The notes below the pieces were generated by a model, which saw only the letters and a list, made by a program, of their open reading frames with translations, was not told where the DNA came from and did no database searches. From NCBI GenBank assembly GCA_949152475.1, contig OX424555.1, positions 97,745,515 through 97,809,514 of the forward strand: a stretch of DNA of 64,000 bases, in the 5' to 3' direction. A program made the translations under genes and the position numbers. The stretch comes from Terebella lapidaria. Its lineage: Eukaryota; Annelida; Polychaeta; Terebellida; Terebellidae. How positions within the stretch are numbered: position 1 is the first letter of the stretch; every line of letters starts with the position of its first letter. Below, piece after piece: positions 1-49,500 of the stretch.

Positions 1-1157
1 AGTCGGGTAAGTTGTGAGACCGCAGGTCATATGAGCTAGAAGTCGGGTAAGTTGTGAGACCGCAGGTTGCACAAGCTAGAAGTCGGGTAAGTTGTGAGAC
101 CGCAGGTCGTACAAGCTAGAAGTCGGGAAAGTTGTGAGACCGCAGGTCGTAGGAGCTAGAAGTCGGTGAGGCCGCAGGTCGTACAAGCTAGAAGTCGGGA
201 AAGTTGTGAGACCGCAGGTCGTAGGAGCTAGAAGTCGGTGAGGCCGCAGGTCGTACAAGCTAGAAGTCGGGTAAGTTGTGAGACCGCAGGTTGTACAAGC
301 TAGAAGTCGGGTAAGTTGTGAGACCGCAGGTCATATGAGCTAGAAGTCGGGTAAGTTGTGAGACCGCAGGTGGTACAAGCTAGAAGTCGGGTAAGTTGTG
401 AGACCACAGGTCGTACAAGCTAGAAGTCGGGTAAGTTGTGAGACCGCAGGTCGTACAAGCTAGAAGTCGGGTAAGTTGTGAGACCGCAGGTCATATGAGC
501 TAGAAGTCGGGTAAGTTGTGAGACCGCAGGTGGTACAAGCTAGAAGTCGGGTAAGTTGTGAGACCGCAGGTCGTACGTGCTAGAAGTCGGGTAAGTTGTG
601 AGACTGCAGGTCGTACGTGCTAGAAGTCAGGTAAGTTGTGAGACTGCAGGTCGTACGTGCTAGAAGTCAGGTAAGTTGTGAGACGGCAGGTCGTACAAGC
701 TAGAAGTCGGGTAAGTTGTGAGACTGCAGGTCGTACGTGCTAGAAGTCAGGTAAGTTGTGAGACGGCAGGTTGTACAAGCTAGAAGCCGGGAAAGTTGTG
801 AGACTGCAGGTCGTACGTGCTAGAAGTCAGGTAAGTTGTGAGACCGCAGGTCGTACGTGCTAGAAGTCAGGTAAGTTGTGAGATGGCAGGTCGTACAAGC
901 TAGAAGTCGGGTAAGTTGTGAGACTGCAGGTCGTATAAGCTAGAAGTCAGGTAGGTTGTGAGACTGCAGGTCGTACGTGCTAGAAGTCAGGTAAGTTGTG
1001 AGACCGCAGGTCGTACGTGCTAGAAGTCAGGTAAGTTGTGAGACGGCAGGTTGTACAAGCTAGAAGTCGGGTAAGTTGTGAGACCGCAGGTCGTACAAGC
1101 TAAAGGTCGGGAAAGTTGTGAGACCGCAGGTCGTACGAGCTAGAAGTCGGGTAGGTT
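1..1157 (+). repeat. 40-bp minisatellite carrying an exon tail and 5' splice site (SLC25A17 last intron)
   Basis: About 29 head-to-tail copies of a 40-bp unit, with some shortened units of about 31 bp near 166-250. On the + strand each unit reads CAGGTCGTACAAGCTAGAAG followed by TCGG and then gtaagttgtgagacc. Read in frame, the first part encodes QVVQARSR, which fits the end of a carrier-family exon (PLQxVQxRLR in PMP34 proteins). It is followed by a consensus GTAAGT donor. The unit is therefore an exon 3' end plus intron start, copied in tandem. Some units have GAAAGT or a deletion in place of the donor. The array runs off the left edge of the window, so the real exon is at or beyond position 1. 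Confidence 0.85.
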
Positions 1158-1489
1158 ATTTGGATGTCAAACATAACCAGGAGAGAAAACTGTAATCAGT
1201 GTGAAAAAATGGCAATTTCATATCGTATCCTGGTAACAGACTATAGCTTACAAATACTGGAGGAGACTAGATAGTATAAGGAATACTTTGTTGGCTTCAG
1301 GCCGGCCGTGTGGACAGACGTGGTCAGGGACTGATTGGAATGATCCAGGCCATGAACAAACTTGCCAAGTTAGTGTTAGGCATCATATATTATATGATTA
1401 ATCACCCTAACATATGTAGATTTAATGTAGATATGTAAACAAGTAACCAAAGTGATCACCCTGTGGATAACTCTGAGCTTTAATCATAG

Positions 1490-1687
1490 ATATTCCCTAT
1501 GACCCAAAAAACTACAACACTTATAAAATGTTTCAGGACACAGGGTGTGACTGGACTGTACAAGGGCTTAGAGGCGAAACTGACACAAACAGTTCTCATG
1601 GCTGCTCTCATGTTTCTTACGTATGAAAAAATTGCAGCCGTCGTCTTCAGAGTAATGAGGCAGGAGATAAGTAAACAGAAGCATTAA
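1490..1687 (+). CDS. SLC25A17: Last exon of peroxisomal membrane carrier PMP34 (partial gene)
   Basis: Terminal coding exon of a mitochondrial-carrier-family protein. The peptide contains [13 protein letters not shown], then [13 protein letters not shown], which matches by eye the C-terminus of peroxisomal PMP34. That protein carries CoA, FAD, NAD and similar cofactors across the peroxisomal membrane. I place the acceptor at 1488-1489 (ATAG) because this start is in phase 0, as is the CGG|GTAAGT donor in the upstream array. That gives ...[16 protein letters not shown]. An alternative AG at 1535-1536 breaks that phase. The rest of the gene lies left of the window. The stop is at 1685-1687 and a poly(A) signal follows at 1834. 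Confidence 0.85.
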
Positions 1688-1833
1688 CAGCTCGACAACT
1701 TAGGTTTTTATCCTGGCTGTGGGAGTTTTGTGCTGTTATGCTACGCTTGTTATTTATGTTTTAATAATCATGACAGTTTCCTGACCAATTGCATTGTTAC
1801 AGTTACATAATTATATAGTTACTCAAGTAACAA

Positions 1834-1839
1834 AATAAA
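1834..1839 (+). terminator. Poly(A) signal AATAAA for SLC25A17
   Basis: A canonical AATAAA lies 147 bases after the stop codon in AT-rich sequence. Nothing else recognisable lies between the stop and the transposon at 2069. Confidence 0.5.
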
Positions 1840-2202
1840 TTAGTTATTGTTTTTAACATTTATAACGTGGACATATATGTGATTGGACACTCAACAGCTT
1901 TTTTATGTAGTTCTCCGAATGGGTCTGCTAGCTTAATATAATGTATTGATATATAATCAATGTAATATAATAATACTTGTGATCTCTACAAGTAAAAAAG
2001 CTGAAATAACCACATGCATTTACAGTTTCTATCAGTTATGAAGACCCACCGCCAAAGAACATAGTTTAGGCAAAAAAAAAAGTATTATGGCTCTGGTTAT
2101 CGGGGTCCCCGAAAAAGTGATAAGTCGACGCGATTTTCTTTTTTTTTTCATTTTTAGGTTACCGGACCTATGGTCTGATAACCTATTGGCATGGCGTTGC
2201 GT

Positions 2203-2247
2203 CCGTCGTCCGTCGTCGTCCGTCGTCGTCGTCGTCGTCGTCGTCCA
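2203..2247 (+). repeat. (CGT)n microsatellite
   Basis: Imperfect CGTC/CGT trinucleotide run inside the Harbinger-like element. Confidence 0.9.
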
Positions 2248-2589
2248 CATTTTTATCTTTTTTGTTTACAGGCGAATTTTTCTGAAATTTTGCACAAAAA
2301 TACTTAAAAATAATTCAAGAAGGAGGTATTTTTTAGTTTTTTGATTTTCGCATTTTACTCAAAATGGCGGCCGTTTTCATCAAAAAATGCCTGATTTTGG
2401 ACTTTGGCGGCCATTTTCTCAAAATCTGTTCAGTAACTTTTTTTCTTTTTGATACATAACACTCCTCGTATGTACTCCTATGATGTCTATAAATTTCGTT
2501 GCGCTTGAATCGCTCGAAGTGGGCCATTTTGGCCCAAACTCGCCCCAAATAGGACTTTCCCATGTTAAATTCTCCTATGCTTTATAATG

Positions 2590-3545
2590 GGACATATTAT
2601 GCCTAATATCTCACTTAATATTGAGATTAGAGACTAATATTGAGAATCAATTGTGGACATATAGGAAATGATATATGCCGAATATTCTCGTGACCTTGAA
2701 TTTGACCTCTGACCTCAGTTTCAAGGTCAGAGCTTAAAATGGCTTATATCTCGCTTATTATCGACGCTACAGCTTAGGAATCAATTGTGGACATATAGGA
2801 AATGATATATGCTGAATATTCTGATGACCTTGAATTTGACCTTCAACCCCATTTTCAAGGTCATAGGACAAAATGGCTAATATCTCGCTTGTTATCGACT
2901 TTACAGCTTAGGAATCAGTTATGAACATATAGGAAATGATATATACAGATTATTGTCATGACCTTGAATTTGACCTTTGACCTCATTTTCAAGGTCACAG
3001 GACAAAATGGCTAATATCTCACTTATTATCGACTCTACAGCTTAGGAATCAATTGTGGACATATAGGAAATGATATATACTGAATATTCTGATGACCTTG
3101 AATTTGACCTTTGACCGCATTTTCAAGGTCATAGGACAAAATGGCTAATATCTCGCTTGTTATCGACTTTAGAGCTTAGGAATCAGTTATGAACAAATAT
3201 AGGAAATGATATATGCTGAATATTCTCGGACCTTGAATTTGACCTCTGACCTCATTTTCAAGGTCCAAGGACAAACTTTCTCATATCTTGCTCCTCTATT
3301 GACTGTATGGCTTGGGAATCAATTGTGGACATGATATAGAAAATGATATTCACTGAATATTTTGATGGCCTTGAATTTGACCTTTGCCCCTTCATTTTCA
3401 AGGCCACAGCACAAAATTGCTAATATCTCGCTGATTATTGAATTTACAGCTTAGCAATCAACTGTGGACATGATATATGCTTAATGTTATATATGCTGAA
3501 TATTCTCTTGACCTTGAATTCAACCAGTGACCTGGCTAACATCTA
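2590..3545. repeat. Seven tandem ~134-bp units rich in nuclear-receptor half-sites
   Basis: Each unit has GGAATCAATTGTGGACATAT, GGAAATGATATATGCTGAAT, then ATGACCTTGAATTTGACC, TTTGACCTCATTTTCAAGGTCA in part or whole, and an AATGGCTAATATCTCGCTT block. The TGACCTTGAA blocks begin near 2691, 2825, 2959, 3094, 3230, 3366 and 3509. The last unit is degenerate. The repeat lies wholly inside the Harbinger-like element and is missing from its short relative. Confidence 0.85.
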
Positions 3546-7600: not shown

Positions 7601-8548
7601 GGAGTGGGGCTGATCCTGGCCGAGATAGCCGCTGCGGGTCACGCAGACAACACTCTCGTCCTGTTCACCTCTGACAACGGAATCCCGTTCCCTAATGGCC
7701 GAACCAATCTGTATGACGCCGGAATGGCTGAGCCGATGTTTGTTTCAAGTCCTCTCCACCGACAGAGGTGGGGGCAGGTGTGTACAGCAAAAACATTGTC
7801 TCTAATGTTGTCATTATTGCACAATACACAACACTGAGAACTGTCAGATGTTCTTGCTGCTGGTTGTGACGATAGATACCTACATTATGAACATTGTACA
7901 ATCAAATTTATAAAAGTCTGAACTTTATTTTAGGAGTCTAATGTACTGGTGAGCTTGGTGGACATTGTACCGACTGTGCTGGACTGGTTCGGCATCAAGT
8001 ACCCCAAGTACAGTATATTTGGACACCACAAGCCCCCCGTGGAGTTGACAGGTCAGTCACTGCTCCCGGTGCTAGCGACAGAGCCGAGGACCGGCCGGGA
8101 CGCTATCTATGCCAGCCACAACCACCACGAGATCACCATGTATTACCCCATGAGGGTCGTCCGCACACTGCGATACAAACTCATCCACAACCTCAACTAC
8201 TTGATGCCGTTCCCAATCGACCAGGACTTTTACGTGTCAGCAACGTTCCAGGACTTGTTGTCACGGACCCGGCGCCACAAGCTGCTGCACTGGTCCAAGA
8301 CACTGAAGTCGTACTACTACCGCCCTCCCTGGGAGCTATACAACCTGGAGGGCGACCCACAGGAGCTAACAAACCTCGCCACAGATCACCAGTACACAGA
8401 TGTGCTGCAGTCACTGCAGGCGAAACTCATCCAGTGGCAGAACAGGACCTCTGACCCCTGGATCTGTGCGCCGACCGGCGTGTTAGAGGACGCAGGGCCA
8501 TACAAACTCCACCCGCTGTGTATGAGCATGGACAACCGGCTCAGATAG
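4684..8548 (+). CDS. SGSH: N-sulfoglucosamine sulfohydrolase (heparan N-sulfatase)
   Basis: Lysosomal sulfatase that removes N-linked sulfate from glucosamine at heparan sulfate ends. I read seven exons: 4684-4768, 6093-6225, 6608-6741, 6832-6982, 7100-7338, 7602-7777 and 7934-8548. All junctions are GT-AG and in phase, giving 510 residues (human protein about 502). Residues 1-20 look like a signal peptide. The metal-binding DDGGFE motif spans residues 30-35. The sulfatase signature C69-S-P-S-R73 is intact; C69 is the residue converted to formylglycine. [29 protein letters not shown] and [12 protein letters not shown] match human SGSH by eye. The start at 4684 gives the best signal peptide; an in-frame ATG at 4645 is possible. 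Exon 1 is the least certain, supported by [15 protein letters not shown] and by phase. Confidence 0.93.
4991..5204. mobile_element. MITE family A, copy 1 (TA target site)
   Basis: 214 bp with inverted ends: CGAGCCGTCCGTCCTAAATT ... and the reverse complement AATTTAGGACGGATGGCTCG, each continuing as CGCCGCATTCCCAAATTCG. It is flanked by TA on both sides. Related copies lie at 50906-51121 and 60696-60911. TA duplication and size fit a Tc1/mariner-type MITE. It lies in SGSH intron 1. Confidence 0.85.
5265..5673. mobile_element. hAT-like MITE with perfect 8-bp target duplication
   Basis: 409 bp. The ends are TAGGGCCCGGACGAGTCGA and the inverse TCGACTCGTCCAGGCCCTA. Further in, both arms carry (G)ACCCGGGTACCCG-like stretches. 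It is flanked by ATACAGAC at 5257-5264 and again at 5674-5681. The 8-bp duplication places it with hAT-type transposons. It lies in SGSH intron 1. Confidence 0.85.
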
Positions 8549-8658
8549 CATACCTTGTAACATATACCGGCGTGTTAAAGACACAGGGCCACACAAACTC
8601 CACCCGCTGTGTATGAGCATGGACAACCGGCTCCGGTAGCATACCTTGTAACACTACC
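8475..8658 (+). repeat. 92-bp tandem duplication of the SGSH coding end
   Basis: The block from CCGGCGTGTTAGAG through the stop codon to CATACCTTGTAACA (from 8475) is repeated from 8567 with a few changes, including the stop (AGATAG versus CGGTAG). The second copy lies in the 3' UTR and is not translated. Confidence 0.9.
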
Positions 8659-11419: not shown

Positions 11420-14400
11420 TCACCTGGGCATGAAGGGTGACTTGGTAGTGTAGCTGTGGAAGGCTGACTGTAACATTGCCATGCGCTGGTGGTCAGAGTC
11501 GACCATGTGTCTGATCTCGGCCTCCTTTGTCTTCAGGCGCTCCTGGAGCATGAAAATCTCCCGGTCCTTCTCCTCCACCGTCGTCCGCAGCTTTGTGTTC
11601 ACCTCTGTCACAGGGAAAGAAGAAATATTACCATTTTAATAAAAGTCTGGCTCTATCCTCTACAACATGTTCCCTCTAAAAGGCCTGAGTTTACCTGTAA
11701 GCTCCCGTTCAAGGCGGCTGATCTTGTCGTAGAGTTCAGACTGCGAGTGACGTTCCTCCTCCATCTTCTGTATTTTCTGGTTGAGGTCGAGTTTCACCTT
11801 GTTGACCTCTGCCATAACTTCGTTGTTCTTCCCAGCGACCTCCTGCAACAAAAACCAGCCTCAGATATAAAATGAAGGTCCTCTGGTGTAGTGGTTTAGC
11901 TGCAGAACTCAAAGTTGTGGAATGGTTGGTTTGAATCTCATAATTGTCTTGGGTGTTCAAGTATAACCACACTAGGCCCATGCTCTGACCTGGTTGAGGT
12001 TGTCTATGCGGTGTCGCAGTGTCTCGTTCTCCAGGACAAGGTTGGCATTACGGGACTGCAGCTCGGTGATCGAGGTCGCCTGTTGTGCCGAGTGACTCTG
12101 CAGCTCGTCCTTCGACGTCGTCAGCATCCGGATCTTCTCCATCAGCTGCTGACAGCGCTGCTCCTGTGGACAAAGTTTTTGCTGGTCTGTAACTCTGCAC
12201 AGAATATTCCTCAGAGAACTACATGTGGGATTGTGTGATCAAAGTTTGGGATACATGTAGTGAGCCATTGGAAACATATCCTGATAAACGATTGAAAACT
12301 TTTATTGCTCCAAAATAAAGACTGAGATTGTTTTCACACCAATCATGGGAACAAACAATGATGTTGGCGATGTAGAACAATACACACACGTGTTTGAGCA
12401 AACAAGGATGTTAGTGATGTCAACAACACATCATGTAGAGGTACATAGGCGATTGATATGGTGGCTATGTCAAGCTTCATTCCAGCTGGAACTTTGATCA
12501 CCTGATGATATTTCTTTCTATATGTAAGACTCAATCTTCCTTTCTATGTGTAGGGCTCAATCTATAAATGCAGGAAATGGAACTTGGAATTCCCCCCAAC
12601 AGATGAGAAGCAGAACTAAGTACCAGCAAACTTACCTCCTCGTGTTTCATCCTCTGTTTGGCTGCGGAGAACTGCTCCTCAGCGTGGAGTTTCTCGGTGG
12701 CGAGGTGGTTTTTGTGGCGACTGACTTCCTCCTCCAGCTCAATTCGAGTCAGCTCCAGCTTCTGGATACGCTCCTTCAGCAGCTTCTCCGTGTCCTCGGC
12801 GTCCTGCCGGATACGCTGCATCTGGGGGAGGAGAAGGGGGAGGAATGTTTAGGAGTGTGTCCAAGGAATCCATTGATACCTAAACTGTTCCTTACCAGTA
12901 TGTCAGAGTACAGTGGTCCCCCTCAGATAAGACCCCCCTCAACAAAGACTTCCCCCTCTGTAAAGACTTTTTCTTGTGGCGCTAGGGTGATTTTAACATG
13001 TAAATGAACCCCTCTAATAAGACATCCCCTTAGATAAGACCTTAATTTTGTGGCTGAAGGGTAGGTCTTATCTGAGGGGGACCACTGTATTGTATAACAA
13101 GTATCACATGCATAGCTCACTATATGTATTGTAAGTTAGAATGTTTCTATTGTAAGGAACTGGTATCGAACCTCTCTGACTTTGATCTCATCATTCTCTC
13201 GGTATGCGTCCTTCAGCTTCTGTTTCTCAAACTGTAGCTTCTCTGTTGAAAGAGGACATATAAAAGAATTGAAATTGAACATTCCACTCTGTCCTGTAGG
13301 ACCTGTTCTTTGGCTTTTTTTCCCCGATTACTCACCCTCAAACTGAGCACCCTTGATCTTGCTCTCAGCATGAGCTGAAGTCAATTGCTCCTTGAGGTCA
13401 AAAATCGTCTCCTGCTGACCTTTGCACTTCCGTTCAAGATCATCAACCTGTGTGAGATATATCATCTCTTTGTTTCAATCTGTTCAAACGTCTAGAAATC
13501 AATAATCTCAACTTACAGCTATTGTGTATGCTCGAAGATATGTCACAATACTGTTTGAGCAACAGTACTACATACTGACCTTATTTGTCAGCTCTACTGT
13601 AGTACACATTACTATTTGGGCCACAGTTCTATGTACTGACCTTATTTGTCAGCTCTACTGTAGTACACATTACTATTTGGGCCACAGTTCTATGTACTGA
13701 CTTTATTTGTCAGCTCTAATGTAGTATACATTACTATTTGGGCCACAGTTCTACATACTGACCTTATTTGTCAGCTCTACTGTAGTACACATTACTATTT
13801 GGGCCACAGTTCTATGTACTGACCTTATTTGTCAGCTCTACTGTAGTACACATTACTATTTGGGCCACAGTTCTACGTACTGACCTTATTTGTTAGCTCT
13901 ACTGTAGTACACATTACTATTTGGGCCACAGTTCTATGTACTGACCTTATTTGTCAGCTCTACTGTAGTACACATTACTATTTGGGCCACAGTTCTATGT
14001 ACTGACCTTATTTGTCAGCTCTACTGTAGTACACATTACTATTTGGGCCACAGTTCTATGTACTGACTTTATTTGTCAGCTCTAATGTAGTATACATTAC
14101 TATTTGGGCCACAGTTCTACATACTGACCTTATTTGTCAGCTCTACTGTAGTACACATTACTATTTGGGCCACAGTTCTACGTACTGACCTTATTTGTCA
14201 GCTCTACTGTAGTACACATTACTATTTGGGCCACAGTTCTACGTACTAACCTTATTTGTCAGCTCTACTGTAGTACACATTACTATTTGGGCCACAGTTC
14301 TATGTACTGACCTTATTTGTCAGCTCTACTGTAGTACACATTACTATTTGGGCCACAGTTCTACGTACTGACCTTATTTGTCAGCTCTACTGTAGTACAC

Positions 14401-17400
14401 ATTACTATTTGGGCCACAGTTCTACGTACTAACCTTATTTGTCAGCTCTACTGTAGTACACATTACTATTTGGGCCACAGTTCTATGTACTGACCTTATT
14501 TGTCAGCTCTACTGTAGTACACATTACTATTTGGGCCACAGTTCTACGTACTAACCTTATTTGTCAGCTCTACTGTAGTACACATTACTATTTGGGCCAC
14601 AGTTCTATGTACTGACCTTATTTGTCAGCTCTACTGTAGTACACATTACTATTTGGGCCACAGTTCTACGTACTGACCTTATTTGTCAGCTCTACTGTAG
14701 TACACATTACTATTTGGGCCACAGTTCTACGTACTAACCTTATTTGTCAGCTCTACTGTAGTACACATTACTATTTGGGCCACAGTTCTATGTACTGACC
14801 TTATTTGTCAGCTCTACTGTAGTACACATTCCTATTTGGGCCACAGTTCTACGTACTGACCTTATTTGCCAGCTCTACTGTAGTACACATTACTATTTGG
14901 GCCACAGTTCTACATACTGACCTTATTTGTCAGCTCTACTGTAGTACACATTACTATTTGGGCCACAGTTCTACACACTTACCTTATTTGTCAGCTCTAC
15001 TGTAGTACACATTACTATTTGGGCCACAGTTCTACGTACTGACCTTATTTGTCAGCTCTACTGTAGTACACATTACTATTTTGGCCACAGTTCTATGTAC
15101 TAACCTTATTTGTCAGCTCTACTGTAGTACACATTACTATTTGGGCCACAGTTCTATGTACTGACCTTATTTGTCAGCTCTACTGTAGTACACATTACTA
15201 TTTGGGCCACAGTTCTACATACTGACCTTATTTGCCAGCTCTACTGTAGTACACATTACTATTTGGGCCACAGTTCTACGTACTAACCTTATTTGTCAGC
15301 TCTACTGTAGTACACATTACTATTTGGGCCACAGTTCTACGTACTGACCTTATTTGTCAGCTCTACTGTAGTACACATTACTATTTGGGCCACAGTTCTA
15401 TGTACTGACCTTATTTGTCAGCTCTACTGTAGTACACATTACTATTTGGGCCACAGTTCTACGTACTGACCTTATTTGCCAGCTCTACTGTAGTACACAT
15501 TACTATTTGGGCCACAGTTCTATGTACTGACCTTATTTGTCAGCTCTACTGTAGTACACATTACTATTTGGGCCACAGTTCTACGTACTGACCTTATTTG
15601 TCAGCTCTACTGTAGTACACATTACTATTTGGGCCACAGTTCTATGTACTGACCTTATTTGTCAGCTCTACTGTAGTACACATTACTATTTGGGCCACAG
15701 TTCTACGTACTGACCTTATTTGCCAGCTCTACTGTAGTACACATTACTATTTGGGCCACAGTTCTACGTACTGACCTTATTTGTCAGCTCTACTGTAGTA
15801 CACATTACTATTTGGGCCACAGTTCTACGTACTGACCTTATTTGCCAGCTCTACTGTAGTACACATTACTATTTGGGCCACAGTTCTACGTACTGACCTT
15901 ATTTGCCAGCTCTACTGTAGTACACATTACTACAGTAAAACCTGCAATGTAAGGACACCCACATATCCAAGCAAAAGTGTCCTTACATTGGAGGTGTCCT
16001 TTCATTAAAGGTGCGCCGTTATGTGTTCATCACCGTTTCAAAACAGTATTGAATACAATGTATTCACTGTTGCTTCAGTATATTTTCATTCATTCACTCA
16101 TTTATATATTTCAATATCAAGTATTGATTTCTTTTAATATATACTAGTATAACCCAGTATATTTATTCATTTATTTGATACTTCTAATGTCAAGAATATA
16201 AAAAAAAAATGCGGAGCTTTCAGTCATTTTATCAGAATGTTTGACAAAAACAAATTGACACAAATAATACACACACATACATGCACACACAAAAATTTAG
16301 ATTTGTAAAAAGTCTGTGATGTTCTTCTGCTGGGCTTGTGATTGCTGGTTGACACGATATTGCCGGAACTGTTCAAAGAACTGGTGTCCAAATTTATGCA
16401 ACTTCTTGTCACTGGTTGTCTGCACAAAGTCGATGATTTCGGACAAGCTTCCAAACGCCTTCTTTGAAGTTAGTGATGGCTTGTCTTCTGGCTTGTCATC
16501 CTTGTTATCACCGTCGTCCTGATCACTGTCATCATCACTGGCAGGCTGCTCACCCCGGGCAATGGCACGGAGCTCGTGCTCCCACTCGTCACTAGTGGTC
16601 TCTGTCGTGGGAGTGTCCTCATCGAGGGAGACAAACTCCTCCCATGAAGTGGAGCCGAGGACACCACGGATGGCGAGCTGACTGAGGGGAATGTCATCCT
16701 CGTCGTCGTACTCATCTGGAATTGATGGCGCCTGAAATCCGCACTTCACGAAGCACTTCGTTACCGTTGACTGTGGAAGGTTTTCCCAAGCCAAGTTTAG
16801 CCACACAATGGCATCGCGAACAGTCACACGTTTGGCAAAGTCCTTTGAGGTGGCACTGTCTTGCTGGTCAACCATTGACACTAGGTGGCGCATCAGTCGC
16901 TTCCTGTAGTTAGCCTTAACTGCGTTGATGATCCCCGCATCCAGTGGCTGCAGGCGTGACGTGGTGTTTGGCGGCAGGAAAGCGAGTTTCACGTTGCTTC
17001 GTTTTATGTCAGGATGTGCTGCACAGTTATCAATGAAAAGCAGAATGTTCCTTTTCTGACTGCGCATGATAGAGTTCACCTTGTCAAGCCACTCTGAGAA
17101 AACAATTGACGTCATCCACGCTTTTTTGTTGGCCCGATAAGTCACAGGCAGCACGGAGGCATTCCCCTTGAAACAGCGAGGGTTGGCTGATCTGCCGATC
17201 ACGAGTGGAGTAAGTTTTTCACCAGTCACAGAACATGCAAGCAGCACTGTGAGGCGCTCCTTTGATTGTTTTGTCCCCTTGCTGGAGTCTCCTTTAACAA
17301 TCATTGACTTCGGCGTCATTGTACGGAACAGTAGAGCTGTCTCGTCGGCGTTGAATATGTCCTGCGGACGGTATCCCTCTGTGATAGAAGGTAGGCGTTT

Positions 17401-20400
17401 GGTCCAGTCAGCAACAGCATCCTCACACACGTCGGCAGCTTCACCACACAGTCGCGCGAAAACAACGTTGTGCCGTTTCTGCCAGGCGTCCAGCCAACCA
17501 TTCGATGCTGTGAAGTTTTCCTTGCCCTGGTCCGCAGCGAGCATCAGTGCTTTTTCTTTAATCATAGGTCCGCTGATTGGAACGTTTTTGGAACGAGCTG
17601 TCGTGAACCATTCCCACACCAGTTTGTCCAGTTCGTCGTACACAATCTTGCGTCGCTTGACATACTTTAAGTCCGACCGAGCTCCGGCTTCCCATTCCTT
17701 GAGGATGGCGGCGCGATTTTCTTTGATGCCTGCGATCTGTGTTTTACCGCAGTTAAGTAACTGAGCAACGGCTCGACAAGACTTTCCACTGTCGAGCTCC
17801 TTGATTACGTTTACACGTTGTTCAAGTGTGAGAGTTTTGCGTTTTCCGCTCATTGTATTGAATTGTGATTTCTTGAATTGTAAGTCTGAGACCAGCAAAA
17901 ATTATGAAAAGGATTAGATATCCTCCCATATTTATACCCACAGAAATCAAGGTGTTTTTATCACGTTTGTATGGGACATGTTATTGTAATTGTGAAAATA
18001 GACACCCAGTGATGCGCTTCATTTCCGATGTCACAAACGACAATGCAAAATTACTGATGTGAAAAATTGTTGTAAAAACACTGTGGCGGCAGACGAGTCT
18101 GCATGGTTACACACTTCATTAGTTACATTTGGGTCCACACTACCAGGCCTACGTCCTCCCCCCTACTTCTCCCCCCACTCCTCCCCCGATGTTTCCAATT
18201 CAATGAATGGTTCACTGAATGCCTGGCTCAATGCTTGTTGATACTGACAGCCAATCGCAATCGCGATCTCTGACACCTGGCGACTAACGATGTAAACACT
18301 GGCGAGATTTCGTGGCGAGACATCAACGTGATTAAGATTATGGACGTTTTGGCCGCTCATTACGGCCGGTTTCTACAGTAGTTATTGTCCGTTGTCCGCG
18401 TTCTGCGGGTGTCCGTCCATCTGGGGTTGTTTATCATTGAAGTGGGTTCGTGAATGAACAATTGTCCGTACATGACAGTTTGGCCGTTCATCTGGGGGGC
18501 CGTCCATTGGAGGGGGGAGTGTATTTGGGCCACAGTTCTACGTACTGACCTTATTTGTCAGCTCTACTGTAGTACACATTACTATTTGGGCCACAGTTCT
18601 ATGTACTGACCTTATTTGTCAGCTCTACTGTAGTACACATTACTATTTGGGCCACAGTTCTATGTACTGACCTTATTTGTCAGCTCTACTGTAGTACACA
18701 TTACTATTTGGGCCACAGTTCTACGTACTGACCTTATTTGCCAGCTCTACTGTAGTACACATTACTATTTGGGCCACAGTTCTACGTACTGACCTTATTT
18801 GCCAGCTCTACTGTAGTACACATTACTATTTGGGCCACAGTTCTACGTACTGACCTTATTTGTCAGCTCTACTGTAGTACACATTACTATTTGGGCCACA
18901 GTTCTACATACTGACCTTATTTGTCAGCTCTACTGTAGTACACATTACTATTTGGGCCACAGTTCTACGTACTGACCTTATTTGCCAGCTCTACTGTAGT
19001 ACACATTACTATTTGGGCCACAGTTCTACGTACTGACCTTATTTGCCAGCTCTACTGTAGTACACATTACTATTTGGGCCACAGTTCTACATACTGACCT
19101 TATTTGCCAGCTCTACTGTGGTCTCATTCAGAGTTATCAACTCCTTCTGTAGCTTCCCCTCAACCACTGCTCGGTCCTGTTTGGCAAAAATATCATGAAA
19201 CAGTTTGTTGTCTTCAATGTCAGTACTTACAGTGAAATACTATGGAAAGCTGGTCAATTCTCACATGTCGCTTCTTGGATGTCACACTATCTTCCATAGA
19301 AATCCAGTTGGTTTCAGCACTTTTTTTTACACTAGATTACCCTTGAGCACTATCACATAATTTTCCGTTGAACATAAGTGGCGGATTCAGTTGTTGTACA
19401 GACCTCCCTGTCACGTCTGAGTTCGAGCTGATGTTGCCGAGAACTCTCTGCTTGCTCCTCCTTTGCTCTAGCAACCACCGCGCTCAGCTCCGCAACTTTG
19501 CTCTCAGACATCGCTAGCTCTGACTCCGCAAGTGAAAACCTACCGAAACGTAGAAGACAGGCAACTGGCAAACAGTTCAAAACCAAGTCAGAGACCATAC
19601 CAAGTTGTGGTGAGAATGATTTGCACATATGAGAACAAAATGATGATTGACACCACATACTTTGTAGCCAGTGTGTTGAACTGTTCCTTCCGTTCCTCCA
19701 GAGCTTCCTGTAGAGCAGCGATTCTCTCTGCAGCGGTCCTGAGACAACAAAAACATTGCAACATCACAGCATGGCAACCTCTGCCATAAGATTCAACAAT
19801 GACAATCATACTTACCTGTTTGTTTTCTTCATAGCAGCTTCCTGTCGATCCAGTTTGCCCAGCAAATCAACCATCTGCAACAGGTCACAAGTGACTATTG
19901 CCAGTACTTCACAGACACACATATTCCCAGGATCAACATCACACAGGATTAGGTAAGAATCAATACCAAACAGTCATACCTCAGTCTGACGAGTTTTCTT
20001 CAAGCAATGTATCTCTTCACTCAGCATGTGCTGCCTTTGTTGGAAGTCTGTCGTCATGGATGCGCGATCACCGTTGTGTGAGACGGCTTTCTCTGAATAC
20101 ATATTACACAATTCATTCTAACAGACTTTAATCAACAAGTACATTTTGATTGAGGATTTGAAAGTTGTGCAAAACTTACCGATGGACCTGAGAATGTCTG
20201 TAGGAATGTTGTTTCCAGCCAAGTCGATCTTGACGATCGTTTTGTTGTAATCAAGGGCACTGAGCAGAGCTCGTCCTCCGATCAAACCAATGTTATTCCA
20301 TCTCAGATCTGGCCAGAAACAATGCACGCTACTGGTAACGACTGGCCCGCATCTATAGGTACTGAGCAATTCAATCACACAAAACTATCAACATTGCGGC

Positions 20401-26400: not shown

Positions 26401-29400
26401 TTTAAATAGGACTGACTTTACATGCATTATAAAATTGGTCAATAATTGAGGTGGGCTATAAAATTGCTGTTTATCTCCCAGTACAGATGTAAGACTCATA
26501 AATGTCATTTATAATGTTTGTGTCTGCGGTAACCAAACCCGTAACCAAGTCCTGGCCTTCAAACAGCAATCTAGTTATTGACTACATATGGTTACTTATC
26601 AAAGAGCCCAAGCTATCTGACTCTATCACGTTTGCAATGATAAGCCAATTTGCTAACGTACATATTGGAAATCTATAAAAGTGCTTGTAAGTTGGCACAC
26701 ATACCTGGTAAAGATCAAATGCACTTCATATTTAGAAGTAACAATCGAAACATCTACTGTGTGTATTGCATTCACTTCAGTCAGCGAGCAAGGGAACGGC
26801 TACAGATGGTGCACATAAAAAAAAACTTCTTCTGACAAAACATTAAAATAACCAGCCAAGTGACTACTCAAGAAAATGAAGGTGTTATTTTGGATAATTA
26901 AGACGCAGGAGATGATCGTGTATTAAAATACATCAGGAAAACAGTGAATATAAATCTAACAGAAGGAAGACTGTGGACTGAACTGTTGTCATGATGGATT
27001 CCAGGGACAAAGTAAAGCGACATCACTCCAAACTGTCAACAATACAGTGGGAGTTCATGAAAAGAAAAACAAGTTTCAGGAAGGAAGGTGAATTCTCCAC
27101 ATTTGAATATGTTAATGTAATTTATTATTATGGGAAATTATAAAGGTGTATGAGCTTTTTCTTGGAGGAAAGGAGGGTTCAAGTTCAGTTTCAACTTTAT
27201 ACCACCAAAAAGATTATGTCATGTGAGAGTATGAGGCAAAAAATCAAAGAAAATTCAATCATATTTGAGCAAGAGGCTCAAATGGTGATAACAATTTTGG
27301 TTGGAGATCAAAATATGCACTGTTCACAAGAATGTAATATAAAGTCTAGCTCAGCATCTTTTATATTTTAGACTTTAACTACTGTCACACATTACATGTT
27401 TGGAGATAAATATTCAGTAATTCAAATTGATGTACATTTCTGGTATTCCCTAAGTTGTACCCACAATATGAAATGATATCTACGCCCTACATTTGCCATA
27501 ATCCACAGATATCCTTACCTGTTGTTGGACCTGTCAGGGTGTTGTGTCTTAAGGCAGATCTACTAATTATGATTGATGGACTAATTAATGCAGTAGATCT
27601 GGCAGTGGGTGTTGTGTGTACACAAGCCCTGATAACCCACTTGACCTGAGCATAAATCTAGGAATACCGGTACAACGCAAATAAAACTCTGATCAGCATT
27701 CCTGAAATAACTAATTGTGAGTACACAGGGTCCATAAAACCAATCCTCCAGGTTACCACACCCTATATGTACATATACTTAAGTTTTATTTTCTCCATCT
27801 TATCACATTAACACATCTGTAACTCCTAATACTCTGATAAATAATTCAATATCTTTGGAAATTCAATAAGCAAATGAGATAACAAGATACTGTGCATTCA
27901 CATTTCTATCCAAAACAATTTTCGTGATATTGGCAGCTGGTGATTTCTGATTTTATCAATAATCAATAACTGATGAACACAGTTCTCCGCCCCAGAATGA
28001 CAGACTAAAGCTGTCTCCGCCAGGGTTTTTGTTTTCAATCAATGTACACCTGTTTAGATAGCTAGCGGATTATATTATGTGGCATGAAGGATTAAATTAC
28101 TACAGTTCCACAGAAAGGATAATTCATTGTGTGTATGAGTAAAAGTTACAGGTATGAATTGTTTTGTAGTGAGGATCATGGATTCATGACCCAGTTATAT
28201 AAATGTGTAGGGAAATGTACATATACATCCATGTGTGGCAGAGGCAGCAGACACTGAAATAATGAAGTCGATGTCAGGGAACCGAACAACCCAAAATATG
28301 GGAAGCAAACCCATTGGGGGTGGGGATACGGGGCGCACTGAAGTGCCCCGCCGGACCCAGAAACCTGAGCTTTATGTTATGGTAACTTCTTGGCCTCTCC
28401 TGAGTATAAATTCCACACAAACTCACTCTAATTACCCTGTTTTCAAACATGTTCCAACACTGTCATGGGGCCTGCAACGTCCCCTCGCCCCTCATCTCTA
28501 TGTTTATCTCTAAACCCGTCCTCCTGGACACGCCTATGGACGTGGTATATGTCTGCTGATGGGAACTATTCTGTTTGATTCTGCATTATTATCATCATCA
28601 TAGACATTGTATGATGCTTGTATTTTTGTGTATTCAACAGGCTCAGCGTCACCGTCAGGTCACGGAGAAATGTCCCCCGAGTGGATTGGTAACCAGGCAA
28701 CCAGACCCTCTGCCGACCTCATCCATAGGGCCTTCGAGGAATATCTGGTCAGTTTTAGCAGAAATACATAACGAGAGATTTCTGATTTTAGGGCATGAGG
28801 GTGAGGTTAGGGGGTACAACCATTCAGCTGATCTCACCCATAGGGCCTTCGAGGAATATCTGGTCAGTTTTAGCAGAAATACATAACGAGAGATTTCTGA
28901 TTTCAAGGCATGAGGGTGAGGTTAGGGGGTACAATCATTCAGCTAATCTCACCCATAGGGCCTTCGAGGAACATCTACTCTAGTCAGTTTTCTCATGTTT
29001 TAAGGCATGAGGGTGAGATGAGGGGGTACAGCCATTCAGCTGATCTCATCCATAGGGCCTTCGAGGAACATCTGGTCAGTTTTAGCAGAAATACATAACG
29101 AGAGATTTCTGATTTTAAGGCATGAGGGTGAGGTTAGGGGGTACAACCATTCAGCTGATCTCATCCATAGGGCCTTCGAGGAATATCTGGTCAGTTTTAG
29201 CAGAAATACATAACGAGAGATTTCTGATTTCAAGGCATGAAGGTGAGGTTAGGGGGTACAACCATTCAGCTGATCTCATCCATAGGGCCTTCGAGGAATA
29301 TCTGGTCAGTTTTAGCAGAAATACATAACGAGAGATTTCTGATTTTAAGGCATGAGGGTGAGGTTAGGGGGTACAACCATTCAGCTGATCTTATCCATAG

Positions 29401-32400
29401 GGCCTTCGAGGAATATCTGGTCAGTTTTAGCAGAAATACATAACGAGAGATTTCTGATTTCAAGGCATGAGGGTGAGGTTAGGGGGTACAACCATTCAGC
29501 TGATCTCATCCATAGGGCCTTCGAGGAATATCTGGTCAGTTTTAGCAGAAATACATAACGAGAGATTTCTGATTTCAAGGCATGAGGGTGAGGTTAGGGG
29601 GTACAACCATTCAGCTGACCTCCTCCATAGGGCCTTGAGGAACATCTACTCTAGTCAGATCTAGTTTGTGTGGTGGTTGCAGGGGGGGGGGGGGGGGGGG
29701 GGGGGTTAGGGGTACAATATGGAGGAGTCCGTATAGCTAGGAAGTTGAGAACTTGACTACCGTGGTCAAGAATACATCTCTACCACAACTGAACATGTCC
29801 TGAATATAAACACATTCATTACCATTTCCTTGACAGCTATATCAGGAGACTTCAATAACATGCGATAAATTTTGTTGTATTGCAAATTTTGTTGATTGAG
29901 TGGCGTCATCTCGTTAAGGTATTTACCGGTATTCACGAGTTTGAGAGTCATATTCAGCAGTCTGGGAAATGCAGGGAATCCAAAACTTATAATCCATCGA
30001 GTACCGGTACCTATGCTATTTGGCATGAATAATTAATTTATTGCCGCCAATTTTGCCTGCTTTATCTCGCAATAATGCAATATCTGTAAACATGATTATC
30101 TGAGTGTAAAGTTGTTGCCAGTCTGTCAAGGTGTTTGAACACTGTTGGACGCCTCTCTGTACAAACAGTGTTGGTGGGTCAATGTTGGGACTACTGCCAA
30201 TATACATAGTATAAGACAATCGTTATCCCAGACGTGAATCTTGTTCAAACTGGTGGTTGAACTGTTGGAATCAACTCAACATGCAAGTTCTGTAAAAAAA
30301 AATTATAGCAATAATATTTGTCATGAGAATTTCAAAGTCCAAATCAATTGAAGCTTTCGGAGTATTTTGGATATTATTTTGGATGATACCGGAATCTACA
30401 CCTAGATCAGCAAATACTCGAGAACACCTGAATATGTTGAATGAGCACGACTGAATCAGAGGACTAAAGTTCATGTTTTGTGGAGAGTTATCAACCAGGT
30501 GCCAAGGTGTCCTGGACTGCTGGTTACCATGGTGATTGTGAGGTGTGATATCTTGGCCACAACATGAGCAGACATGTAGGAAATACCTTGGGCTGCTGAG
30601 AACACACAAGACGGCCCTTGTTTGTGGTCATGCCACCAGCAAACCATAATAAAATACCTTGGTGATGTGAAGAATGTGCTTGATGTTTCAATATTTCCTA
30701 GTGCAAGAAATATACGACTCAGACCACATAACTTTTGTGGCGTAGGGGAAAATTAATAACCTATATAGGTTCCTCTTCACAACGATGACATGAAGGACTT
30801 TCATTCATGGGATAGTGACATTTGTAAATGATGGAATGCTCATTTCTGAAGTAGACATGCCTGATATGAGTACAATGGTGAGATTTTTTCTGAGTTTTTT
30901 TTTTCTCTTTACAACTGTATGACTTATTGTAGCTCCTATATGGGATAAATGTTGAGGTGAAAGTATAGAGTCTGCACGATGAGGTCACATGGAATTTATT
31001 AAAAATACTTATATTATATATTCAATTTATATTGTAATAGTTATGACTCCATTGTGTTGATATAAATTATGCATGCTTCCAGCAAGAGTTCACTGATTCT
31101 AAGTCAGACTCTGCCTGATGTTAATGATGTGTGTGCAATGAATGTTATTGTGGCATATATATGTTGTTTAACTCCTGTATCTATTTGCAGGAAACAATAT
31201 CCCCTCTCTCTGAGGAGGACGAAAACGCTCTTCGCTTGAAGTCAATCGATGAAAAATGGCAAATTGTCTTCAATGTGGTGAGTTTCTTCATCAGAAGAAC
31301 TATTTTTTATACTTGTATGTATGACACATACCGTATTGGTCCTAATAGTACCACGACTAGCCAAAGCAAGACCTCATGCAGAAGCACGCATAAAAATGAG
31401 GAAATTTTAGAAAATCACTGAATAACATACCTATAGCCTTCAATCCCCTTTAGGCCATTATTTTTTGATCAATTGTTTTACAAACCCGCCGACTCTAGTC
31501 AAAATTGGCCGCTAATAAATAAATTTAGCAGTTCATGTTTTTATTTTTATTATCCCGCCGACTCGGAACAAAATGCGCTGAAAAAAAGTGTGTTGCATCG
31601 AGATTGTATGTGGCTGAGAACTGTTGTATGGAGCGCATTGTATGTCTTCAACAATCGTACGTTGATGGAGCAGGAAAAGATGAAAGTATACATCAGCAGA
31701 ACTCTCTTAATCACACTGTCAAACTTTGTCACAAAATTTATGTAGTCTAGTAATTAACAAAACAATGACAGTAATCCTTTCGTTCATATACATATTTCAT
31801 GTGATTTGTTATTTCTGGTCAGGCTTTCTGTTCTACTTTTGTTTTGTTTTGGGTTTTTTTTTTGTAGATAAAATTGAAGTTTTACCACTTTTATGTGTTT
31901 GATATGCCTCAGAATATCATGAGATGTGCATTTCATTCCATTGTTGTTTTCAGAAGTCATGTACATCAAACATAATGTTGAGTCATATTTTAGAAGCGAT
32001 ATAAAATCATAGCCACCATTTTATGTGTTTCCTGATACGTCTTGGTGGTATCCCACTACAAAATGACAGGAAGGTTTAGTAATATTGTACAAGGAGCGGA
32101 AGTACGAGCACTTCAGCATGTATAGTATTGAATTTATTGTCCAAAATTGGTTTGTATTTTTTTTTATCCGACCGACCACATATTTCCAGCTACATTTATT
32201 TTTATTCGCTCCTACCGACCGACTGTAAAGTTTTAGCAAAGATTTTTTCGTAAAACAATTAAATAAAAAACGATGGCCTTATTATGATTCAAACAACATA
32301 AATGTGTGGATTAGAACACTACAAAATTTTATTAGAAAGATGTGAATTACAAGGTTAAAAAAAATTGGGGAAGAGAGAGGGGCGCTCTACTATTAGGGCA

Positions 32401-41449: not shown

Positions 41450-41455
41450 AATAAA
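41450..41455 (+). terminator. Poly(A) signal AATAAA for the formin gene
   Basis: AATAAA lies about 555 bases after the stop codon, in AT-rich sequence. Confidence 0.5.
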
Positions 41456-43564: not shown

Positions 43565-46500
43565 TTAGTAGTTGTCCCTGAGTCGACGTCTCCAATACTC
43601 CGCCAGAAGTCCCTTCAATTCATCAATCTCGTTGTTGTAAGCTTCGTTCACGCCGCGTGGTTCATACCCGTCCTGTAGATGTCAACAACATCAAGGCGCA
43701 ATCATCGTGAGCTCATAACACACTGTGCTAACATGTAACATTTTTATGATTTGATAAAAAGCATATGAACAGCTGAGGGATCCTTTATCATGATTACAAC
43801 AACTCACGATGGCGTTTTCACTGGAGTCCTCCTCCTCCGAGCTCTGATTCTCCTCTTGCTGGGCGGTTGGCAGAGTGAAGTCAACAACCTGCGCGGGCTG
43901 GTGGCCAAGGTTCGTGACCTCCACGGTCTCGGAGACACACTCGTACTCCGGCTCAGAGCACACCTCCACGCGGTACGTTCCCTCCACCAGAGGGCGCCAG
44001 TAGTCGCCATCGTGGGCTATAAATTGTAGAGAATAATCGAAGATCTCATCATTGAATACCGGTAGTAGGTGAAAAGATAAGCAAACTTCATATGTACACA
44101 TAATACATAGTCTACACATATCATGATAACAATATGGACATCCGACAGCCACATAGATGACAAACTTGTCACAAAGACATGGTTCAGGAAGATGATCTGT
44201 ACCTGAGGTGACGTCATGTTCTATGCGATGATCTTGGCCGTTTGTGATATTGGTAACTTTGATGATGGCATGAGCGATTCCGTTACCGTTCTCATCCCGA
44301 ACCACTCCCTTGAAGCCGAGGTGAGTCTACGGTAAAAAGAGTTATCCACTGAAGGACTCTGATCAAAGGGCTGACCAACCACATAAACCTTTAAATCTAG
44401 GTATAATTGAATGTCAAATTCGACCAATCCAGCTCAATCAGACCCCCCAGCTGACCTGCCAGATGTACTCCACAAGAGCCTGCTTGTTGTCCTTCCAGTA
44501 GCTAGGCAGATCCTCGGCCTCAGGGAACTTTACACACCCCAGCTCCAGCGTAATCTCAAAACAGTTGCTGCTCAGGTAGTTAAAGTCCTGCATACCTGCA
44601 CGACAATCGTCAAAATCAAAGTAATAAGGATGATACCACACAATATCAATAACACTTTATATTTCAAGAAATATCGACATCAGCCAACACGAAGGGCATT
44701 ATGCATCACATTTTGCTGTTTTGTTTATTGTTTTGTTCACTTATGTTTGCCCACTGACCTCCAGCGACTGAGTACCAAGCGGCGCCGTTCGTGATCCCGC
44801 CCTGTTTGACAAACTCGTCGTCGTCGGACATGTCACAGCTGGGGTGGGGTTTGGCCATGGTGCTGTGAGTCGCGGCGTAGCTCTCTGCTAGGTACCTGAT
44901 CACAATACACGGGACATGGGGGTCAGTGAGAGTCAGGCGTGGTGTCAGGGAACATTGTGTGTGCCTCAATAAACTTTGAACCATGTTGAATTGACCAGGT
45001 ATATTCTGTATGTTTCATTGCAAAACTTTGCATTTTGCCAAATTCATGAGGAAACATTTGACCACGTATTGTATCTTGTTTATAAACCCATCACCCACAA
45101 ATTGAGCTAACAAATATTATTGTACGCTTTATCAAAACAGGATCCTGTATCTTAAACACATAACACCACACATTACACATTCATTACAAAACCGAAAGAG
45201 ACATAATATAGGTCTGACATTCATGAACTAAAAGTACATGTAATTACAATTGTGTTGTAAACACAAATATACTGCCTTGAATCACCGACTAACATCCTTA
45301 CATTTATCCCCATCACCAAGTTTTATATTAGCACAGTCATGAATATCTATAGTTATACCTTGCACAATGTAAGCTACAACTACGCTTATAGCGATATGAA
45401 ACTAAGTTTCTTACTCTGCAGTAACATTTAAAAACTTCTGAAATGTGGCAGTAAACAGACAATTACATTATGATTATCAATATGATTATGTGGCAAATGA
45501 AAATCCATAATGATATTTCACCTGATTATATTATTGTATCGCACCCAAACTATTTTATTTTTCCAGAACATGTATTTATCTCCAATATATAGTCAGTATT
45601 CATCATGCTGATGTACATTACGATTATGTCACATCCATGCAGAAAGAACTTCTATTTAGTACTGTGCCATTATTGTTGCCATCTTATCCCCCCCCCCCCA
45701 CCATGGGTTACCATGGATACGTACTTGAATGTGGCATCATCAGGGCTGGCGGCGTAGTCCTGAGACTGTCCAGTGCGACTTTCGTCATACGGGTAGTTGG
45801 CCACGAGGTCCCCGCCGTGAAGGTTTGCCGACACAACGAACGGGACGTTCATGATCCACTCGATCACCATCCTGGTCTCCGGCTGCAGCTGTTAGCAGAT
45901 AAGAGACAATACATGAAAGTTTCAAAAAGTTTTGAAAGGAAACAATTATCCTGTAGCAGGTCCATGACATTTATTCAAATTGAGAACATGAGATTGTTCC
46001 CAGAACCTGAGAACCATGAAAATGTAAGATACATATTTCATCAGATTAATACAGGCTCAGACTAGATTTCATACATGATGAAAGACGAACTGTCCACAGA
46101 AGCTTCCAATATATGTGATTGCTTCACTGAACTAATGCAATATTATTTGATCTCATCTAACCTACAAACAGAAATATCATCTTTCAAATTACATTACCAC
46201 ACAGTCAGAAGTCATAAAAGCTATTGACACATGACACAAAATATGATATGCATTCAACAGATGTACAACGTACAGACAGGAAATTGATACGTTTATCATG
46301 TTTATGAGTTTGGTGGAAGTTAATATTGTCATGGAAATTGTAATTCCACATAAAGTTTATCATCGATATTATTATTCACACATACATGTGCATGCACTAC
46401 ATTGTACCATGGCTTACACCTTTCACAATAGCCCCGACTATCGTATATACCATGTTGACACACCTGTGGTACAAGTACAATAGACAACTCATTAGCCTAG

Positions 46501-49500
46501 GGTATGACTACACTGGTTAATCCTCTCGCTATAGCTAACTACTGTATTCGTCATACCCATCAGCTCTTCCATATGTCATATGGAATTGAATCTGGCAACA
46601 AATGAAGGCAGTTTGATCATCCAAGATCTAAAGCTCTCCCCCAGTACCTGTTTGTTGTCTGCCCCACACCTGCCTTCTAAACTCCCCTCGCCCACCCACC
46701 CCTCCGGCCCGTAACTGTTTGTTGTTGATGAGGGACTGTCGCATCAGATGATTGTTCTCCTCGTGCCGCTTCTCATTGCTGTACCCCCCCCCCACCCCCC
46801 CGGCCAGTATCTGTTTGTTGTCTGCCCCGCACCTGCCTTCCCACCTCCCCCCCCCCCCCCCACCCCTCCGGCCAGTACCTGTTTGTTGTTGATGCAGGAC
46901 TGTCGCATCAGATGATTGTTCCCCTCGTGCTGCTTCTCATTGCTGTACCCCGCCCCCCCCCCCCCCCACCCCTCCGGCCAGTACCTGTTTGTTGTTGATG
47001 GGGGACTGTCGCATCAGATGATTGTTCTCCTCGTGCCGCTTCTCATTGCTGTACCCCCCCCCCCCTCTCCATCCCCCCCCACCCCCCCGGCCAGTACCTG
47101 TTTGTTGTTGATGAGGGACTGTCGCATCAGATGATTGTTCTCCTCGTGCCGCTTCTCATTGCTGTACCCCCCCCCCCCCTCTCCATCCCCCCCCACCCCT
47201 CCGGCCAGTACCTGTTTGTTCTTGATGAGGGACTGTCGCATCAGATGATTGTTCTCCTCGTGCCACGTCTCATTGCTGTACCCCCCCCCCCCCTCCCCAT
47301 CCCCCCCCCCCTCCGGCCAGTACCTGTTTGTTCTTGATGAGGGACTGTCGCATCAGATGATTGTTCTCCTCGTGCCGCTTCTCATTGCTGTACCCCCCCC
47401 CCCCTCCCCATCCCCCCCCCCCCCCCCTCCGGCCAGTACCTGTTTGTTCTTGATGAGGGACTGTCGCATCAGATGATTGTTCTCCTCGTGCCATGTCTCA
47501 TTGCTGTACCCCCCCCCCTCCCCATCCCCCCCCCCCCTCCGGCCAGTACCTGTTTGTTGTTGATGAGGGACTGTCGCATCAGATGATTGTTCTCCTCGTG
47601 CCGCCTTCACTGCTGTACCCCGCCCCCCCCCCCCCCCCCTCCGGCCAGTACCTGTTTGTTGTTGATGAGGGACTGTCGCATCAGATGATTGTTCTCCTCG
47701 TGCCAAGTCTCATTGCTGTACCCCCGCCCCCCCCCCCTCCGGCCAGTACCTGTTTGTTGTTGATGAGGGACTGTCGCATCAGATGATTGTTCTCCTCGTG
47801 CCGCCTTCACTGCTGTACCCCGCCCCCCCCCCCCCCCCTCCGGCCAGTACCTGTTTGTTGTTGATGAGGGACTGTCGCATCAGATGATTGTTCTCCTCGT
47901 GCCGCCTTCACTGCTGTACCCCGCCCCCCCCCCCCCCCCCTCCGGCCAGTACCTGTTTGTTGTTGATGAGGGACTGTCGCATCAGATGATTGTTCTCCTC
48001 GTGCCGCTTCTCATTGCTGTACCCCCCCCCCCCCCCCACCCCCCCGGCCAGTACCTGTTTGTTGTTGATGAGGGACTGTCGCATCAGATGATTGTTCTCC
48101 TCGTGCCGCTTCTCATTGCTGTACCCCCCCCCCCCCCTCCCCATCCCCCCCCCCCCCTCCGGCCAGTACCTGTTTGTTGTTGATGAGGGACTGTCGCATC
48201 AGATGATTGTTCTCCTCGTGCCGCTTCTCATTGCAGTACCCCCCCACCCCCTCCGGCCAGTACCTGTTTGTTGTTGATGAGGGACTGTCGCATCAGATGA
48301 TTGTTCTCCTCGTGCCGCTTCTCATTGCTGTACATGATGCGGTTCAGATCTGGGAAATTCCGGTTCAAATCAACGTTACCATCATTTGTGCGTCCTTCCA
48401 ACCAATCGTTGCCTCCCTGTTAACATAGAAACACAAAACAGTCAGCTACTGACATTGATTACTAGCATAACACTGACAGCATGACGATGACTCGTAGTCT
48501 CGACTAGCTCAGACTACTGAAATAGGCTCAATTGATTCAATATTTCAGAGTCAGGCATGAGGGCAATGTTCCGACCTGTCCATGGACAGAAAACAGTATA
48601 CAAGGTAACATACCGAAGTGTATGCGGTCTCATAACCGTCTGGGTTCATGGAGGGCATGAGGTGTATCCTGGTGTTCTGTATCAGGGAGACAATGTCGGG
48701 ATTCCCCGCGGTGTAGGCGTCACACAAATACTCCATCAGGTCCAGCAACAGCTCCCGACCAACGATCTCGTTACCGTGCATGTTGGCTACGTACTTGAAC
48801 TCTGGCTTGCCTGGAATCAAACAAATATACATGAATGTTGTTTTAAAAGCACTTTTTTATTCATTATATATGAATACAGTATTCCCTCGAACAAGGGCCG
48901 GGGCTTTAATAAGTGCATGCTTGATTAGCCGCCGGGACAACCGAGCAGTCTAAAAGAATAAACGCTAGTGTTTGAATAACACGAGGGGGGGGGGGGGGGG
49001 GGTGAGTCTACGGTTAAAAGAGAGCTAGGAATTATCCACTGAAGGATAAGATTTCGCCAAGCAATAATAGTTCAGAAATGGTGTGTTTTGTTGATTTTCT
49101 TTTGTATCTCGCATTGACACCAATTCGATATTCACCGTTCTAAACAGACATGTATTACACCGCCGAAAATCATATTGAACTTTTCCCATATGAATGCCAC
49201 AAATCACAAAAGTCAAACACTCGTCCAAAGTGATCTATCAGCGGAATATTTATCTGTGCAATCACGAGGAACCTGAGGAAGAGAACGCCGCCGAAACAGC
49301 GGGGAGACGAGATCGTGGTGGTCGAGAGCGACAACAAGGACAACATTCCACTCACTGATTTTATACTGCAGTATTTGGGTAGTACATGTGTTTCTAGTGG
49401 ACAATTTTCTAGTAATGTATGACATGATTCGGCTACAGTATATTAACTATATCGGCCATTCAACTCAATGTTAAATGCTCTTACTTTGACGGTCCATAAT

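Follow-up and report, generated by a model that had tools for sequence, protein, structure and literature searches.

The window (the whole stretch of DNA analysed here, 64 kb in length) contains four genes with a minisatellite array at a 5' splice site: SLC25A17, LRRC45, a formin and a CPE-like carboxypeptidase. The four donor arrays were identified with TRF at the positions claimed in a sequence-only reading of the same DNA, which had also named the four genes. The layout is common to all of them, as read directly from the DNA: each unit is formed by the tail of the upstream exon, the GT donor and the head of the intron, and the units follow one another head to tail, as that reading had described. 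Its claim that the array begins at the real exon, made for the three genes where this exon was visible, also stood, and with the DNA upstream of SLC25A17 the real exon 3' end is the array start in 4 of the 4 genes. Pfam matches back the gene identities (Sulfatase and SGSH_C, LRR, FH3 and FH2, Mito_carr, HMG box), and PDB matches that of the metallocarboxypeptidase; the names SLC25A17, LRRC45, CPE and TFAM are more specific than these domain matches and are putative. The features of the window are as follows.

1..1157, + strand: SLC25A17 donor array, 40-bp unit, 29.3 copies in the window by TRF (sequence and unit table)
1301-1368 and 1537-1687, + strand: next SLC25A17 exons, downstream of the array (sequence, exon finder, Mito_carr match)
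8474..8653, + strand: SGSH-like sulfatase, 91-bp x 2 duplication across the stop codon (TRF)
13544..15932, - strand: LRRC45 array, distal part, 61-bp unit, 39.2 copies (TRF), GT intact in 39/39
15933..18521, - strand: Tigger/pogo-like DNA transposon, DDE_1 transposase (Pfam), TA on both sides
18522..19119, - strand: LRRC45 array, exon-proximal part, 9.8 copies (TRF), 10 walked, GT intact in 10/10
19099..19176, - strand: LRRC45 exon, its last 21 nt opening the first array unit
28642..28747, + strand: formin exon, its last 30 nt opening the first array unit
28718..29647, + strand: formin donor array, 115-bp unit, 2.3 + 5.7 copies by TRF, about 8 in all
46641..48333, - strand: CPE-like donor array, variable unit of about 94-119 bp, TRF periods of 94-115 bp and multiples
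48264..48416, - strand: CPE-like exon, its last ~70 nt opening the first array unit

The SLC25A17 unit comprises 24 nt of exon tail and 16 nt of intron head (GTAAGT plus 10 nt). The whole array has about 31 copies and its onset is located within the exon, about 58 bases before the window. This exon lies outside the window (L039 9868-9966), with its end 34 bases upstream of the window start, and its last bases read CTGCAGGTCGTACAAGCTAGAAGTCGG followed by the donor GTAAGT; the array begins in the last 24-25 of them (common tail L039 9943-9966). By coordinates, the array represents 89% of the intron, with 143 bp remaining. A search of the genome (761.6-Mb assembly, 438 contigs) with this unit reported 30 matches, all 30 within its own array.

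The LRRC45 unit comprises 21 nt of exon tail and 40 nt of intron head. The two parts listed above form a single array of 49 units, divided by the transposon at a TA. The transposon contains a long transposase reading frame, and its position within the array indicates that the array is older than the insertion. Array and transposon together make up 98% of the intron by coordinates, with 96 bp remaining.

The formin unit is formed by 30 nt of exon tail and 85 nt of intron head, and the array represents 37% of its intron by coordinates if the exon at 31191 is the next one. In the CPE-like gene the unit comprises about 70 nt of exon tail, about 11 nt more and a poly-G run (coding strand) of variable length; the array proposed earlier is there, and the unit of about 100-115 bp given for it is corrected to a length that varies with this run. 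It takes up 68% of the intron by coordinates. When the exon at 48264..48416 is spliced at its first donor to 45712-45888, the alignment of the product with carboxypeptidase N (2nsm) continues through the join with a gap of one residue, so the first donor is compatible with a conserved protein. Two of the five PDB matches (2nsm and 3mn8) span the join in one stretch; in the other three the best stretch stops short of the residues that the array repeats (query ~89-117), and the homology argument for the first donor therefore rests on two chains.

Three further donor arrays, with units of 43, 44 and 32 bp, were identified in apparently one myosin gene on contig C6.

L075: 43-bp donor array
L087 and L078: 44-bp donor array
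L101 and L085: 32-bp donor array

The exon tail equals the units of the 32-bp array over 10-11 nt (22 nt if three mismatches to the consensus are allowed) and those of the 44-bp array over 10 nt. The 43-bp array adjoins the donor, has a divergent first unit and has in common with the exon tail 4 nt only, or 10 with one mismatch, being the weakest donor case. Thus 6 of the 7 donor arrays clearly start within the real exon end, at a distance of 10-70 nt from the donor, and the 43-bp one is the exception. The 44-bp array is the largest: its intron measures 6,925 bp, and by coordinates the array fills about 99% of it with about 156 units, ending about 49 bp before the acceptor. Both of its ends were read (L078 and L087) and its middle is known through genome matches alone; all 72 two-unit matches reported (94-100% identity) fall within the array, and they cover 92% of C6:376,356-383,201 with 12 gaps, each of about one unit (40-44 bp). 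The exons flanking this 6.9-kb array match adjoining parts of the Pfam myosin profile (380-422 and 415-517). The 32-bp array represents 66% of its intron by coordinates. A myosin gene on contig C1 (G000:C1:67002015-67016119) presented five matches at profile ~99-165 and three at ~593-640, which look like clusters of alternative exons.

Exon edges other than donors are also affected. A 57-bp x 2 duplication crosses a 3' splice site in L030 and a 78-bp array crosses another in L013. Besides the stop-codon duplication of the SGSH-like sulfatase, a second stop codon is crossed in a mitochondrial-carrier gene.

L038 2649-3240: 55-bp x 10.7 array, from the last codons past the stop

In these four cases one complete boundary is kept beside the exon and the extra copies are located on the non-coding side. 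The sequence-only reading had stated that donor arrays start at the exon and run downstream only; the anchoring was found in 4 of 4 genes, and the polar process that it might imply is unneeded, since in any tandem duplication spanning a donor the upstream copy is the exon itself. Two candidates were set aside: a 20-bp imperfect repeat at C15:27970032, which on reading is a repeat within an exon, and the L022 array, which lies before an exon with no demonstrable boundary and was left uncounted.

The unit lengths leave 1 modulo 3 in four arrays (40, 61, 115 and 43 bp) and 2 in two (44 and 32 bp), and vary in the CPE-like one. The value of 1 noted earlier for the units of 40, 61 and 115 bp is correct but not general, as 2 of the 3 further arrays depart from it. 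The arrays are homogeneous, the walked units being 72-100% identical to their consensus (the walk of the 43-bp array ended after one unit and the CPE-like array was unwalked). The GT was intact in 27 of 31 units of SLC25A17, 49 of 49 of LRRC45, 7 of 8 of the formin, 8 of 8 of the 44-bp array (part read) and 10 of 14 of the 32-bp array. These counts would suit a function for the extra donors, either as docking sites of U1 snRNP against early polyadenylation in long introns or as splice redundancy. However, donor and other bases of the unit presented no consistent difference in conservation across the walked arrays, so donor conservation was rejected as a sign of function; this is what homogenisation without selection on the extra donors would give. 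Moreover, the coordinates of three cases leave only 49-143 nt from the array to the acceptor, so that the introns were probably short to begin with and offered little to protect, and arrays at acceptors and stop codons can have no such role. We regard functional donors as highly improbable.

The reading that we favour, and hold to be somewhat more probable than its rivals together, is that these are minisatellites of the type called mirages: tandem duplications spanning a boundary, amplified by unequal exchange and tolerated where the original exon and the first donor stay intact. The first event would be a small tandem duplication, its ends probably joined by a few homologous bases, that by chance spans an exon/intron boundary. 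The copy adjacent to the exon would retain the full exon and its donor, and if the first donor is used the mRNA would be unaltered, the other copies being intron. With two copies present, unequal exchange and slippage could amplify and homogenise the units, in a growth that would be neutral, and the intron would lengthen as its head is copied again and again, in the extreme to near-total filling. Duplications that break an exon would be purged, while those across a stop codon or either kind of splice site would survive. The arrays found at two acceptors and two stop codons are as this tolerance model predicts. Short homology between the joins and the exon bases that immediately precede the copied tail (by eye; e.g. 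ACxGCAGG, ACxACAG, GCyGAyCTC and GTAC) is as expected of a duplication assisted by micro-homology. The first donor of an array might not be used in every case. As for the mode of growth, LRRC45 has its exon-like variants close to the exon (11 G vs 35 A, P = 0.0003) whereas those of SLC25A17 are found in the distal half; a common polarity of growth was accordingly rejected.

Array positions were compared with chance in two sets. The first is a contiguous region of 104 kb, formed by the window and 20 kb on each side. It has 56 donors and 58 acceptors, a count that takes in four SLC25A17 exons of L039; exon borders in the window were obtained with a home-made exon finder and filtered by eye. When the 24 merged arrays of this region were placed at random, the donor arrays were 4 observed against 1.3 expected (P = 0.037), and the acceptor arrays 0 observed against 1.35. 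With the 12 locus-specific arrays, a hand-picked set with dispersed satellites left out and neighbours merged, 4 straddled a donor against 0.48 expected (P = 0.00075, 4000 random placements), an excess that is post hoc, as the region was flagged for these arrays. A limit of 40 bases gave 3 observed (P = 0.001) and one of 110 bases gave P = 0.0015.

The second set is a separate sample of exons with Pfam matches to carriers, kinesins and myosins (91 donors, 97 acceptors and 22 arrays), located in loci of large contigs and in stretches of ~1 kb around further matches. The loci used were 8 of 30 for kinesins and 21 of 30 for carriers, those of small contigs, many with in-frame TAA or TAG, being left out; the further myosin and kinesin stretches were chosen by hand from the match lists. 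The exon list comprises 104 match rows (45 carrier, 27 kinesin and 32 myosin), 103 of them located within 52 segments (111 kb in total) and one (C8:5180536) extending beyond its segment. The donor excess was not significant in this sample (3 vs 2.2, P = 0.38), which is small, has its three donor cases in apparently one gene, and consists of small exon-centred segments that raise the expectation; an exon at ~C6:375654-375785, which entered the list when its array was already known, favours the 5' count. The acceptor arrays were 1 by automatic count and 2 by reading, against 2.1 expected, the difference being the L013 array, missed by the automatic acceptor pick.

Together the two sets contain 46 array rows in ~216 kb, of which 11 match another sampled locus, and none of the boundary arrays is among these 11. 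Within the scope searched the boundary arrays are thus locus-specific. The earlier argument that four unrelated units cannot derive from a single mobile sequence was borne out by this result and by the 30 self-matches of SLC25A17, and, judging from these comparisons, a mobile origin of the boundary arrays is unlikely. The locus-specific arrays straddling an exon edge are 11 of 28 (35 non-dispersed rows, merged by hand).

One interpretation of these counts is that boundaries are not special, the genome being rich in minisatellites of which some straddle edges by chance, and the window having been noticed for its four. With all arrays counted, the separate sample fits a uniform placement and the contiguous region departs from it marginally, and many arrays are indeed intronic or intergenic. 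Given the 11 of 28 locus-specific arrays at an exon edge and a P of ~0.001 in the contiguous region, we consider chance placement improbable.

The other interpretation, less improbable though still doubtful, is a mutational process specific to donors, such as breakage linked to transcription close to the donor (through R-loops, a stalled polymerase or nascent RNA bound by U1) followed by a repair that duplicates. A position-specific process at 5' splice sites had been proposed from the four genes, together with a count of arrays at exon edges as its check, and the outcome was divided: the flagged region gave the post hoc excess, to which the three arrays of the myosin gene may be added, and the separate sample gave none that was significant, with two acceptor arrays by reading and stop-codon arrays that include no donor. 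The coding strand of 7 of 7 donor-array units has a positive GC skew (0.20-0.35), as R-loops would suggest; however, 37 of the 56 donors of the region, the four array donors included, have a positive skew, which gives 7 of 7 a probability of ~0.05, and the skew was rejected as a sign of R-loops. A uniform tolerance of boundaries does not readily account for the flagged region, where donor arrays exceed the expectation and 4 of 56 donors but 0 of 58 acceptors bear an array. We conclude that arrays at boundaries are no rarity in this genome; that they favour donors in particular is suggested rather than demonstrated.

Mirages were originally described, reportedly, in a 2002 paper on Adh. In amphioxus they are intragenic minisatellite-like repeats with a unit across the exon/intron boundary, present in Adh3, globin, troponin C and PGBD5, as PMC3087553 and PMC3902484 relate, which agrees with the remark of the sequence-only reading that the type was known there. 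According to the same papers, many units keep the AG/GT, 5' and 3' boundaries are affected, normal splicing is reportedly undisturbed, and the units range from 10-72 bp (Adh3) to 150-160 bp (globin). The arrays described here are likewise tandem repeats internal to genes, with units of 32 to ~119 bp in 7 introns, and here too arrays occur at 3' as well as 5' boundaries; the unit spans the boundary with a copied splice signal, clearly in 6 of 7, the exon part of the 43-bp unit being short and uncertain. Protein homology over the first donor, in the carboxypeptidase (2 of 5 PDB matches) and in the myosin (profile coordinates), would be compatible with undisturbed splicing. Unlike the amphioxus globin BflGb6, for which 3 and 6 units are described, the arrays reach ~156 copies, one of them nearly a whole intron; the host is probably an annelid and not a chordate, and arrays at stop codons were seen.

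Two other systems are comparable. Intron gain by tandem duplication of AGGT-containing sequence (e.g. PMC4974935), as summarised in that paper, is likewise a duplication of splice signals that alters gene structure, but here pre-existing introns are enlarged and no new intron is shown. The minisatellites of intron 1 of earthworm metallothionein (PMC12783039) are also large, intronic and located in annelid genes; as far as described, their monomers include neither exon ends nor donors. The "mirage" of PMC7960049 is unrelated, being the name of a transposon. Among the titles and abstract openings of the open-licence literature searched, no mirages were described outside amphioxus.

The mitochondrial COX1 of the host reads with ATA as Met, AGA as Ser and TGA as Trp. 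The erythrocruorin-linker domain (Eryth_link_C), not known outside annelids, has seven matches above the curated cut-off (best E 5.4e-12) in two large contigs. The GFP family is expected in amphioxus. It gave no match in the genome, nor did the molluscan haemocyanin domain, in searches that had no positive control and are not proof of absence. We take the host to be probably an annelid.

The arrays are thus of a known kind in what is probably a new phylum; they are larger and include stop-codon cases, and mirages are probably not confined to amphioxus. Their greater length and their presence several to a gene in a probable annelid suggest that intron growth by boundary duplication is more general, and that an intron could lengthen through copies of its own splice site while the gene stays functional. 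A stronger version, in which duplication of the 5' splice site is a recurrent, lineage-crossing form of intron enlargement in annelids and amphioxus, the donor region being copied to near the whole intron by a process that targets the junction, is proposed only tentatively and is rather unlikely. The arrays also constitute natural tests of spliceosomal choice among tens of near-identical consecutive donors.

Other repeats were identified in the same DNA. A dispersed satellite-like repeat of ~134 bp (beginning GACCTTGAATTTGACCTTTGACCTC) is present at 2644-3520 of the window, in L040 (2962-4741), in L042 (201-1163 and 4155-4799), in L011 and in L028. At 53767-55884 (- strand) there are retroelement-like frames, one resembling reverse transcriptase by exon-finder reading, which adjoin a 145-bp x 2 repeat at 53531-53816. 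Finally, carrier, kinesin and myosin genes with in-frame TAA or TAG are found in small contigs (C34, C60, C75, C92, C103, C110, C178, C234, C303, C351, C414 and others), and a second COX1 in C417; both are probably ciliate contamination.
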